Assembly: GCF_000687935.1 (NCBI RefSeq)
Contig: NZ_JHZZ01000001.1
Location: forward strand, 1,178,001-1,242,000
DNA: 64,000 nt
Direction: 5' to 3'
DNA from: Polaribacter sp. Hel_I_88
GTDB taxonomy: Bacteria > Bacteroidota > Bacteroidia > Flavobacteriales > Flavobacteriaceae
This document shows positions 52,243 through 59,200 of the stretch, piece after piece. Every line of letters begins with the position of its first letter. Position 1 is the stretch's first letter. The translations under genes were made by a program, and so were the position numbers. The notes beneath the pieces are model-generated. The model did no database searches. It worked only from the letters and a program-made list of their open reading frames with translations, and was not told the origin of the DNA.

Positions 52243-52647
52243 ATGAAAAAAATCATATTATTATTCGCGGGTTTATTTCTTTTTTATGCTTGTTTAAATA
52301 ACGAAGATCAAATAAACTTTGGCTACGAAATTCTACCAATTGATGAATTTACTACTCCTATAGCTTTTACTTTTGGTGAAAAAGACACTGTGAAAGTAAA
52401 ATATACCTTAAAAAATAGTTGTTATAATTTTGATAATATTTATTACGAATACCAAGATACAGCAAGAATTGTAGCTGTAAGGGCTATTGTAAATTTAGAC
52501 GAGAACTGTACAGATGTAAGTACGCAAAGAGAGTTTGATATTGTTGTAACTGCAACACAAAGAGAAGATTATGTGTTTAAGTTTTTTAAAGGTTTAGATG
52601 CAAATGGCAATAATATTTTTGAAGAAGCTGTGGTTCCTGTAAATTAA
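52243..52647 (+). CDS. Small lipoprotein
   Basis: 134 aa. Signal KKIILLFAGLFLFYAC with lipobox YAC; the mature domain looks like a beta-sandwich, with NSCYNFDNIYYEYQD and NLDENCTDVSTQREF. Its stop codon overlaps the proposed ATT start of the sigma-factor gene, so it seems to be part of that operon and may be linked to its signal. Confidence 0.75.
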   Translation: MKKIILLFAGLFLFYACLNNEDQINFGYEILPIDEFTTPIAFTFGEKDTVKVKYTLKNSCYNFDNIYYEYQDTARIVAVRAIVNLDENCTDVSTQREFDIVVTATQREDYVFKFFKGLDANGNNIFEEAVVPVN

Positions 52648-53197
52648 AATCATCGAACTTAAAAAACTTATACAGCAATGTTGTGAGCAAGATTTAGGGG
52701 CTCAATCTAAAGTTTATCAGCTATTTGCTGGTAAACTTTTTGCTGTTTCTTTAAAGTATTCCAAAAATTATCAAGATGCAGAAGATAATTTACAAGATAG
52801 TTTTTTAACAATTTTCGATAAAATTAAACAATACAATCACAAAGGTTCTTTTGAAGGTTGGTTAAAACGAATTACCATAAATACTGCCCTAAAAACGTAT
52901 AGAAGAAAAACGACATTGCAAATTGTAAAAGAAGTTGCAGAAAATATCGAAAACGAGGAATTTGATTTAGAAAAAACCGTTTTTAATGTTGATGTTTTAC
53001 TAGAATGTTTGCAACAATTACCTAATCAATATCGATTGGTTTTTAATCTTTTTGTACTTGATGATTATTCGCATAAAGAAATTGCAAACCTACTAAATAT
53101 CTCTATAGGCACTTCAAAATCGAATCTTTCTAGGGCCAGAAAAATTTTGAAAGAAAAATTAGAAATCCATCAAAAAGAAAAAAATAATGGAGGATAA
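52643..53197 (+). CDS. ECF-type RNA polymerase sigma factor 1 (start at ATT)
   Basis: About 184 aa. Sigma region 2 (YQLFAGKLFAVSLKYSKNYQDAEDNLQDSFLTIF, then FEGWLKRITINTAL) and region 4 (LPNQYRLVFNLFVLDDYSHKEIANLL, then GTSKSNLSRARKIL) are intact. An in-frame stop is at 52640-52642 and the first ATG/GTG/TTG in frame (TTG 52916) is after region 2. The start must therefore be a rare codon; ATT 52643 gives MKIIELKKLIQQCC and overlaps the previous stop, consistent with coupling. The following gene overlaps by 11 bp. Confidence 0.85.
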   Translation: MKIIELKKLIQQCCEQDLGAQSKVYQLFAGKLFAVSLKYSKNYQDAEDNLQDSFLTIFDKIKQYNHKGSFEGWLKRITINTALKTYRRKTTLQIVKEVAENIENEEFDLEKTVFNVDVLLECLQQLPNQYRLVFNLFVLDDYSHKEIANLLNISIGTSKSNLSRARKILKEKLEIHQKEKNNGG

Positions 53198-54473
53198 TAA
53201 AATTGATGATTTATTTAAAAATCAGCTAAAAAATCTTGAGGTTTCTCCAAATAACAGCATTTGGAATTCCATAGAAACTAAATTAAATAAGAAGAAACGT
53301 CGTGTTTTGCCTTTTTGGTTATTTTCTGGTGCAGCTGCAGCAATTTTGGTGTTAGCTTTGTTTTTATATCCATTTTTTACGAATAAAAACCAAAATATAA
53401 TTCCTCCTAATAATGAAATAATTACAACAAATCCATCAAAAAAACCTAAAACAAATACTACTACTGATTCTTTAATTTTTCAAAATAATAACATCGAACA
53501 AAATTTGGAAAAAAATCAAAATGCAGTTGTTAAATCAGCAATTAAAAAAGAAAAACCGATTATTTATGAAAATAATAAAGAGTTTGTTGCGCTTAAAAAT
53601 CCAGCAAAAAAAACATTTTTAATCCCTTTTAATATTGATGCAGATTTGGTATCAAATAAACAAATATCAGCACTAAATATTGATAAAATTACAGAGAAAA
53701 AAGTTTCCAAAAAAATGGATATCAATACTTTTTTAACAACAAATAAAACGAAAAAAAGTGATAAAGAAGTTGTCAAAAATTGGTCTGTTGCTCCTGTTTT
53801 TGGGGTTTTACAATCTAATTCATTTTCTGATACTTCTCCTATTGCAAAAGAATTAGCCAATACTACAACAGGCGAAAACTCCTTTTCTTATGGTTTACAA
53901 GTTGGTTTTAAACTCAATAAAAGATGGACGATTCAATCAGGAATTCACCTCCAAGAAATAAAATATGCTAACAATCAAATTACAGTATATCCATCAGAAA
54001 TTGAAACCATACAATCAGTTTCTTTTAAAGATAATAATCCTGTTTCCTTTAACAACACTGTAACAGAAAATTTAACCCTTAGATCTGATTTATTTAGTAC
54101 ATTAGCAAAAAGTAATGGAAATTTATCTCAAAATTTCGGTTACGTAGAAATCCCCCTTGAAATGAAATACAACTTCTCTAACAACAATAAAATTGAAGCA
54201 CAATTAGTTACTGGTTTTAGTTCGCTTTTTTTAGATAAAAACAAAGTGGTTTTAAACACGTTTAACACTACAAGAACAGGAGAATTAACAAACCTAAGTA
54301 CCATTAATTTTAGCGGAAATTTAGGCTTCGATTTTAATTATTTTCTAAATAATAATTGGTCTTTAAATATAAACCCAATGTTTAAAGTACACCTAAACAC
54401 TTTTAAAACAGAAGCTAACGACTTTACACCATTTAACTTGGGTATTTATTCAGGAATAAAATATCAATTTTAA
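53187..54473 (+). CDS. Membrane-anchored protein with C-terminal beta-barrel-like domain, partner of sigma factor 1
   Basis: 428 aa. The cytoplasmic N-terminus has the flavobacterial sigma-partner signature SPNNSIWNSIETKLNKKKRR, followed by one transmembrane helix (about 44-64), a low-complexity Asn/Lys/Thr segment (66-205), and a C-terminal region (about 210-428) with alternating hydrophobic strands ending in GIYSGIKYQF, like an outer-membrane beta-barrel. It overlaps the sigma gene by 11 bp, so it is likely its anti-sigma or sensing partner. The topology is paradoxical. Confidence 0.75.
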   Translation: MEDNKIDDLFKNQLKNLEVSPNNSIWNSIETKLNKKKRRVLPFWLFSGAAAAILVLALFLYPFFTNKNQNIIPPNNEIITTNPSKKPKTNTTTDSLIFQNNNIEQNLEKNQNAVVKSAIKKEKPIIYENNKEFVALKNPAKKTFLIPFNIDADLVSNKQISALNIDKITEKKVSKKMDINTFLTTNKTKKSDKEVVKNWSVAPVFGVLQSNSFSDTSPIAKELANTTTGENSFSYGLQVGFKLNKRWTIQSGIHLQEIKYANNQITVYPSEIETIQSVSFKDNNPVSFNNTVTENLTLRSDLFSTLAKSNGNLSQNFGYVEIPLEMKYNFSNNNKIEAQLVTGFSSLFLDKNKVVLNTFNTTRTGELTNLSTINFSGNLGFDFNYFLNNNWSLNINPMFKVHLNTFKTEANDFTPFNLGIYSGIKYQF

Positions 54474-58169: not shown

Positions 58170-58668
58170 TACTGGTGTTTTTTTGGTTTAACTCATTAAT
58201 ATGTTCTTTAATATCTTTGATTAATTGCAAACGTCTTTGCAAATTATCTATTAAAGATTGTAATACATGTATATTGTTTGGGTATTCTTTTAATTGCTTG
58301 GTTATTTTTTTGTAATCAACATCGTATTCTCTTAATTTTTCTTCATATTTTTTAATCAAAACAGTATCATTTGCAATTTCTTTGAAGCTATTCCATTCTT
58401 TGTCTATATTTACTAAATAGTCTTTCTCTATGGCTTGAATTTGCAGTTCAACTGCTGATTTTGATGTTCTTGTAAGTTGGTTTTGGTACATATACACACA
58501 AGTAATTATCAACAAAAAAGACGCAACAATTTTTAAAAATGTATAATTCTTTTTCTTTTTAGGTTGATGTTTCCCTAACTTTTTGATAAAATCTTCACGA
58601 TGGTTTTTGGGAATTTCCTTCTCGACAACATCATCATTCAAAAATAAATCTCTAATATCACGTTCCAT
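58150..58668 (-). CDS. Putative anti-sigma factor with one membrane helix
   Basis: 172 aa. The N-terminal cytoplasmic part (HREDFIKKLG, about 22-31) is followed by a membrane helix (about 44-62) and a periplasmic coiled coil (about 85-165). It overlaps the sigma gene by 11 bp and has the layout expected of a membrane-held anti-sigma, though the sequence is not a recognised anti-sigma family. Confidence 0.7.
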   Translation of the reverse strand: MERDIRDLFLNDDVVEKEIPKNHREDFIKKLGKHQPKKKKNYTFLKIVASFLLIITCVYMYQNQLTRTSKSAVELQIQAIEKDYLVNIDKEWNSFKEIANDTVLIKKYEEKLREYDVDYKKITKQLKEYPNNIHVLQSLIDNLQRRLQLIKDIKEHINELNQKNTSNETIYI

Positions 58669-59200
58669 ATTTTGCTACTTTTAAAAGGTTTCTCAAAGCT
58701 AATTTTGCTCTTCTTAAATGTGTTCTTGATGTTTTAACAGGTATCTGCAATATTTCTGATATTTCTTGATGATCATAGCCTTCCATCAAAAATAATTTTA
58801 CAACCAATTGATATTTTAAATCCAGTTTTTCAATTGCCTCGATAATTTGTTGTTTACTAATTTTTGAACTGAAATTCCAATCATCATCATTAGAAATTTC
58901 TAAAGGATACGTTTCTAAAGAAATGGTTTCTAATTTTTTCTTTTTTAAGAAATCAATACATGTATTAATAATAATCACTTTTAACCAACTACTAAAATTA
59001 GTGTCATCAGCATAATTCTCTAAATTTAAGAATGCTTTTAAAAAACCATCTTGCATGGCATCTTTAGCTTCTTCATCATTTTTTAAATACCTACAAGAAA
59101 TAGCAAACATGGCATTGCAATGCAAATCGTACAATTTTAATTGCGCCTTTTGGTTGCCATTTTTACTTTCAATCACTAAAAAATTAATTTCTTTAGACAT
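58658..59200 (-). CDS. ECF-type RNA polymerase sigma factor 2
   Basis: 180 aa. Region 2 (YDLHCNAMFAISCRYLKNDEEAKDAMQDGFLKAF, then FSSWLKVIIINTCIDFL) and region 4 (LDLKYQLVVKLFLMEGYDHQEISEILQIPVKTSRTHLRRAKLAL) are intact. It starts a three-gene operon with the putative anti-sigma and the exported protein. A matching ECF-type promoter lies just upstream. Confidence 0.92.
   Translation of the reverse strand: MSKEINFLVIESKNGNQKAQLKLYDLHCNAMFAISCRYLKNDEEAKDAMQDGFLKAFLNLENYADDTNFSSWLKVIIINTCIDFLKKKKLETISLETYPLEISNDDDWNFSSKISKQQIIEAIEKLDLKYQLVVKLFLMEGYDHQEISEILQIPVKTSRTHLRRAKLALRNLLKVAKYGT

Follow-up and report, generated by a model that had tools for sequence, protein, structure and literature searches.

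Initiation factor IF3 rejects start codons of the AUU, AUC and AUA type. Its own gene, infC, starts with AUU or AUA under autocontrol, and we count it among the known systems closest in kind to the sigma factor gene described here. The likeness lies in a conserved AUH-type start (H = A, C or U), which lowers initiation in infC and would do so in the sigma gene; moreover, the infC of the same genus itself probably uses AUA (see below). The differences are that the codon of the sigma gene is mostly AUC, that it stands in a phylum without Shine-Dalgarno initiation, and that its product is a sigma factor and not an IF3 repressing its own AUH start, so that direct autocontrol by IF3 does not apply.

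Other genes resemble it in part. The Staphylococcus aureus genes ccpN (AUA) and cvfC1 (AUU) encode (putative) regulators with conserved non-NTG starts, and S. aureus reporters with AUU or AUA starts reached about 10% of the AUG level, a value that varied with the medium for ccpN (PMC13009471). Unlike the sigma gene, which has no such pairing and whose codon varies between related genera, they need extended Shine-Dalgarno pairing. The AUU start of E. coli pcnB limits its expression, according to a paper citing Binns and Masters (2002); pcnB encodes an unrelated protein, whereas in the sigma gene AUH has taken the place of UUG/GUG throughout a clade. Also in E. coli, loss of 16S C1402 methylation is cited as leading to more initiation at AUU (in PMC13317604). 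The GTG-started sugar regulators lacI, cra and mlc display a conserved avoidance of ATG (PMC11445065), as do the orthologues of the sigma gene outside the Polaribacter clade, but the Polaribacter gene uses AUH. Judged from its sequence, the sigma gene would join the conserved non-NTG starts of infC, pcnB and ccpN as the first sigma factor found among them in the open-licence literature. A search of open-licence papers found none that deals with this gene or with AUC initiation in Bacteroidota; an earlier mention elsewhere is possible.

The gene, for a sigma factor of the stress type, lies in a window of 64,000 nucleotides (the whole stretch of DNA that was analysed) from the complete, single-contig genome of a marine bacterium, whose closest relatives with named loci are Polaribacter. 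The features that delimit its frame are as follows.

52243 to 52647, plus strand: upstream lipoprotein gene, which begins MKKIILLFAGLFLFYAC... and ends in PVN and a stop codon, the stop being 4 nt ahead of the ATC at 52652; most clade loci have the same end.

52640 to 52642, plus strand: TAA, the in-frame stop ahead of the sigma frame, read from the sequence.

52652 to 53197, plus strand: coding sequence of an ECF sigma factor of 181 amino acids, with Pfam Sigma70_r2 and Sigma70_r4_2; an orthologue is found in 255 of 299 family genomes.

52916 to 52918, plus strand: TTG, the first in-frame NTG of the sigma frame, inside the protein and past region 2.

After the TAA the frame reads ATT AAA ATC ATC GAA CTT AAA AAA CTT ATA. 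An earlier sequence-only reading of the window had stated that this ECF sigma frame contains no ATG, GTG or TTG between the stop and position 52916, and it was correct. Read from 52643, the protein matches sigma region 2 (PF04542) at residues 25-90, region 4 (PF08281) at residues 119-168, and TIGR02937, all above cut-off; it thus has sigma-70 regions 2 and 4 only, which is the mark of an ECF sigma factor. The TTG at 52916 corresponds to residue 92 and was rejected as a start, since region 2 would be lost. A run of 91 codons free of NTG is not very rare when codon composition alone is considered (P about 0.05). Its significance derives from the conservation of the pattern across the clade loci, not from composition.

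Orthologues from the genus, the family and named contigs were brought together and aligned at their N-termini, identical coding sequences being counted only once. Left out were four loci that resisted alignment at the start codon (including L078, which has a TTG one codon earlier than the aligned position), early-stop copies and the paralogue from the same genome, L003. The final sets, divided by the aligned start codon itself, comprise 44 Polaribacter-type loci and 164 others. A protein tree from which the first codons had been omitted unites the same 44 loci in one clade with a support of 0.98; in the nucleotide tree they are joined by one ATG-started locus.

None of the 44 distinct clade loci contains an NTG up to and including the aligned start codon, apart from L212, from a fragmentary genome, in which an ATG occurs seven codons upstream. 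In L208 the whole sigma frame is devoid of NTG codons. Of the 19 ECF-like sequences found in the genome under study, the other 18 all have an NTG in or ahead of the region where the N-terminus is expected. A sequencing error or a pseudogene is a negligible alternative: nothing was found in its favour for the window, although one clade copy (L032/L219) has a stop at codon 11, and it is refuted by the comparison, in which 44 loci are alike, the 181-aa frame is intact and regions 2 and 4 are conserved. Base error is likewise excluded by the single-contig genome together with the sequence that it shares with a near relative, L009, whose sigma protein is 89% identical. The proposal that the gene lacks a canonical start and must use a codon of the AUU, AUC or AUA type is borne out.

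Two codons come into consideration as the start.

52652 to 52654, plus strand: ATC, the most likely sigma start codon; the aligned codon is NTG in 164 of 164 non-clade loci and ATC, ATT or ATA in 44 of 44 clade loci.

52643 to 52645, plus strand: ATT, chosen in the sequence-only reading and judged here not to be the start; it overlaps the AAT-TAA ending of the lipoprotein gene.

The codon aligned to 52652-52654 is TTG in 118, GTG in 33 and ATG in 13 of the non-clade loci, in which conservation climbs sharply at this position. Its counterparts in the clade are ATC (33 loci), ATT (9) and ATA (2), so that AUH occupies the orthologues' start position with no NTG nearby, L212 with its upstream ATG apart. 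In L030, L033 and L037 a TAG stands only one codon (CAC or CAT) before the aligned ATT or ATC, so that nothing further upstream could serve as a start. Within the clade ATC accounts for 75% at the aligned codon but for 9% of Ile codons in the rest of the gene, which is unlike an ordinary internal Ile. A constraint on Ile is not wholly separable from one on the start, since all three codons specify Ile, but the codon bias and the nearby stops argue otherwise. The ATC at 52652 also has A at both -3 and -6, a favourable initiation context as measured in Flavobacterium johnsoniae (PMC6847099). On these sequence comparisons the gene most likely starts at AUC 52652-52654, three codons past the ATT.

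Initiation at ATT 52643, coupled to termination of lipoprotein translation, is by comparison very unlikely. This codon overlaps the lipoprotein stop and is kept in 29 of the 44 clade loci, but it consists of two bases from the Asn codon of the lipoprotein ('AT') and one from the stop codon ('T'; the sequence is GTA AAT TAA) and hence belongs to the AAT-TAR ending of that gene. It is replaced in the other 15 by ACT, CTA, GGT, TAG, TTT and others. Furthermore, its context is poor (T at -3, C at -6), codons 2-3 are free to vary within the clade, and non-clade orthologues start three codons downstream. The choice of this ATT was thus not upheld. The same reading had held that a conserved downstream start in the orthologues would speak against a non-canonical start; such a codon exists, the fourth of the frame at 52652, and the non-canonical start survives there as ATC, ATT or ATA.

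It had also been suggested that sigma synthesis is tied to translation of the lipoprotein. The lipoprotein stop and the sigma start are separated by 4 nt in most clade loci and by 1 nt in four, a spacing that would suit termination-reinitiation at the AUC as the chief purpose of the weak start. We consider this possible but rather unlikely. In the non-clade genera the corresponding gap is usually 10-30 nt, and in the clade AUH is retained where no gene ends nearby: seven loci (L030, L033, L036, L119, L212, L214 and L215) have no ORF of at least 80 codons ending within 200 nt upstream, and other clade loci have an unrelated upstream gene 10-110 nt away. Since the weak start persists with a different or absent upstream gene, coupling cannot be its main reason. 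Coupling as such may still operate in most of the clade, given the 4-nt gap, and it is compatible with the explanation by a weak AUC start. That the two frames share a few bases in most clade loci might instead point to a fused protein with no separate start, made by frameshift or read-through from the lipoprotein frame. This is extremely improbable in view of the seven loci without a nearby upstream ORF, those with an unrelated upstream gene, and the ordinary NTG found at the same codon in non-clade loci. In six loci (L031, L034, L035, L037, L210 and L211) the lipoprotein is replaced by a frame of mostly 230-260 codons that ends with a conserved STCD...NG..Y motif.

The gene that follows the sigma gene bears on the reason for a weak start.

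53187 to 54473, plus strand: downstream gene, a putative membrane-bound anti-sigma factor (OMP_b-brl_2), whose ATG start overlaps the sigma stop.

Its make-up, with a short N-terminal part, one hydrophobic segment and a beta-barrel-like C-terminus, suggests a membrane-bound anti-sigma factor; Pfam and TIGR-type profile searches gave no match to an anti-sigma family. By a permissive test, the sigma stop has an ATG for this gene no more than 40 nt away in 155 of 156 scorable non-clade loci and in every clade locus. Of the non-clade sigma genes themselves, 13 of 164 start with ATG.

Taken as a whole, the following explanation appears probable to us from the sequences. Initiator tRNA would translate the sigma gene from AUC 52652-52654. 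Because AUC pairs with it at two of three positions, initiation would be slow and open to rejection by IF3, and sigma synthesis would stay below that of the ATG-started partner, the presumed anti-sigma factor. The weak start would be old and maintained, as UUG or GUG with a potential start hairpin across the Flavobacteriaceae, replaced once in the Polaribacter clade by AUH with an open start region. It seems that sigma production is held low on purpose, by a genus-wide AUH as against the UUG or GUG of related genera. The low sigma level, the stoichiometry argument and the sensitivity to IF3 are inferred by analogy. An infC-like limit on expression, as the sequence-only reading had put forward, is by the same analogy the natural reading of such a start.

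The potential start hairpin belongs to the non-clade loci: counted from the start, nucleotides 2-7 (UGAGUU) are complementary to nucleotides 14-19 (AACUCA), and synonymous codon choice supports the pairing. The complete set of six pairs occurs in 106 of 162 non-clade loci; 2000 synonymous randomisations gave it in 3.6 on average and in at most 11, or, with codons 9-10 fixed, in 17 on average and in at most 30. The relatedness of the loci inflates these counts. The predicted accessibility of the start codon is 0.28 outside the clade (0.44 when randomised) and 0.71 inside it (0.59 when randomised), the clade being without the hairpin and without an NTG start. Hairpin plus NTG on one side and AUH on the other could represent a swap of one brake for another. 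Single-sequence folds near the AUC hardly outdo shuffled sequences, if at all (z -0.2 to -1.55), giving no sign of a conserved RNA structure there, and RNAalifold found no consensus structure in ungapped slices of either the clade or the non-clade group.

One side of this pairing touches a further constrained element.

52667 to 52672, plus strand: codons 9-10, the strongest synonymous-codon constraint in the gene; CTT ATA here, CTC ATA in most orthologues.

CTC makes up only 3-6% of the gene's Leu codons overall, but at codon 9 it is used for 33 of 41 Leu codons in the clade and for 141 of about 151 in the others; every clade locus has ATA as codon 10. Outside the clade, though not inside it, the CTC can be accounted for by pairing with the start codon. 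Because the clade keeps this codon without its hairpin partner, the hairpin is not the full explanation of CTC.

The infC gene of the genus reads GTC (once GCC) ATA GCA ATH in 31 of 31 loci (e.g. L269 and L252), with no usable NTG start in nearly all of them. An AUA start for IF3 is thus very likely on sequence grounds, and its conservation indicates that these cells do initiate at AUH codons. Discrimination of the IF3 type may act on both infC and the sigma gene. This leads to a broader conjecture, which we hold to be doubtful: sigma translation would be kept low by interchangeable means, a hairpin-buried UUG or GUG in most genera and an open AUC or AUU in Polaribacter, where the shared AUH would place the sigma factor under the IF3 or 16S-methylation control of infC. 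If so, the state of the initiation machinery would feed into an envelope-type regulon.

The replacement of UUG/GUG by AUH occurred once, with a single origin in the Polaribacter clade. About seven third-base changes have since taken place at the start codon among C, T and A, none of them to G, which is at most faintly suggestive of selection against AUG. Two further sigma copies in Polaribacter genomes (L216, L217), which start with TTG, do not belong to the clade. Conserved AUC or AUU starts are very rare, and gene finders restricted to ATG, GTG and TTG would truncate or miss this sigma factor across the whole genus. The phylum initiates without Shine-Dalgarno pairing, and the contrast of UUG/GUG with AUH at one aligned codon supplies two natural states with which start-codon choice and IF3 discrimination could be tested directly there.

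Some minor observations concern copies and neighbours. The clade orthologue of genome G028 (L032/L219), with its TAA seven codons past the AUC, may be a broken copy; this genome also carries the TTG-started L216. A second ECF sigma gene with a normal ATG lies 6 kb away in the genome under study (about 58657-59200, minus strand), and the gene after it has one hydrophobic segment. Beside the operon is a LuxE-like acyl-protein synthetase gene (PF04443; 50652-51626, minus strand).
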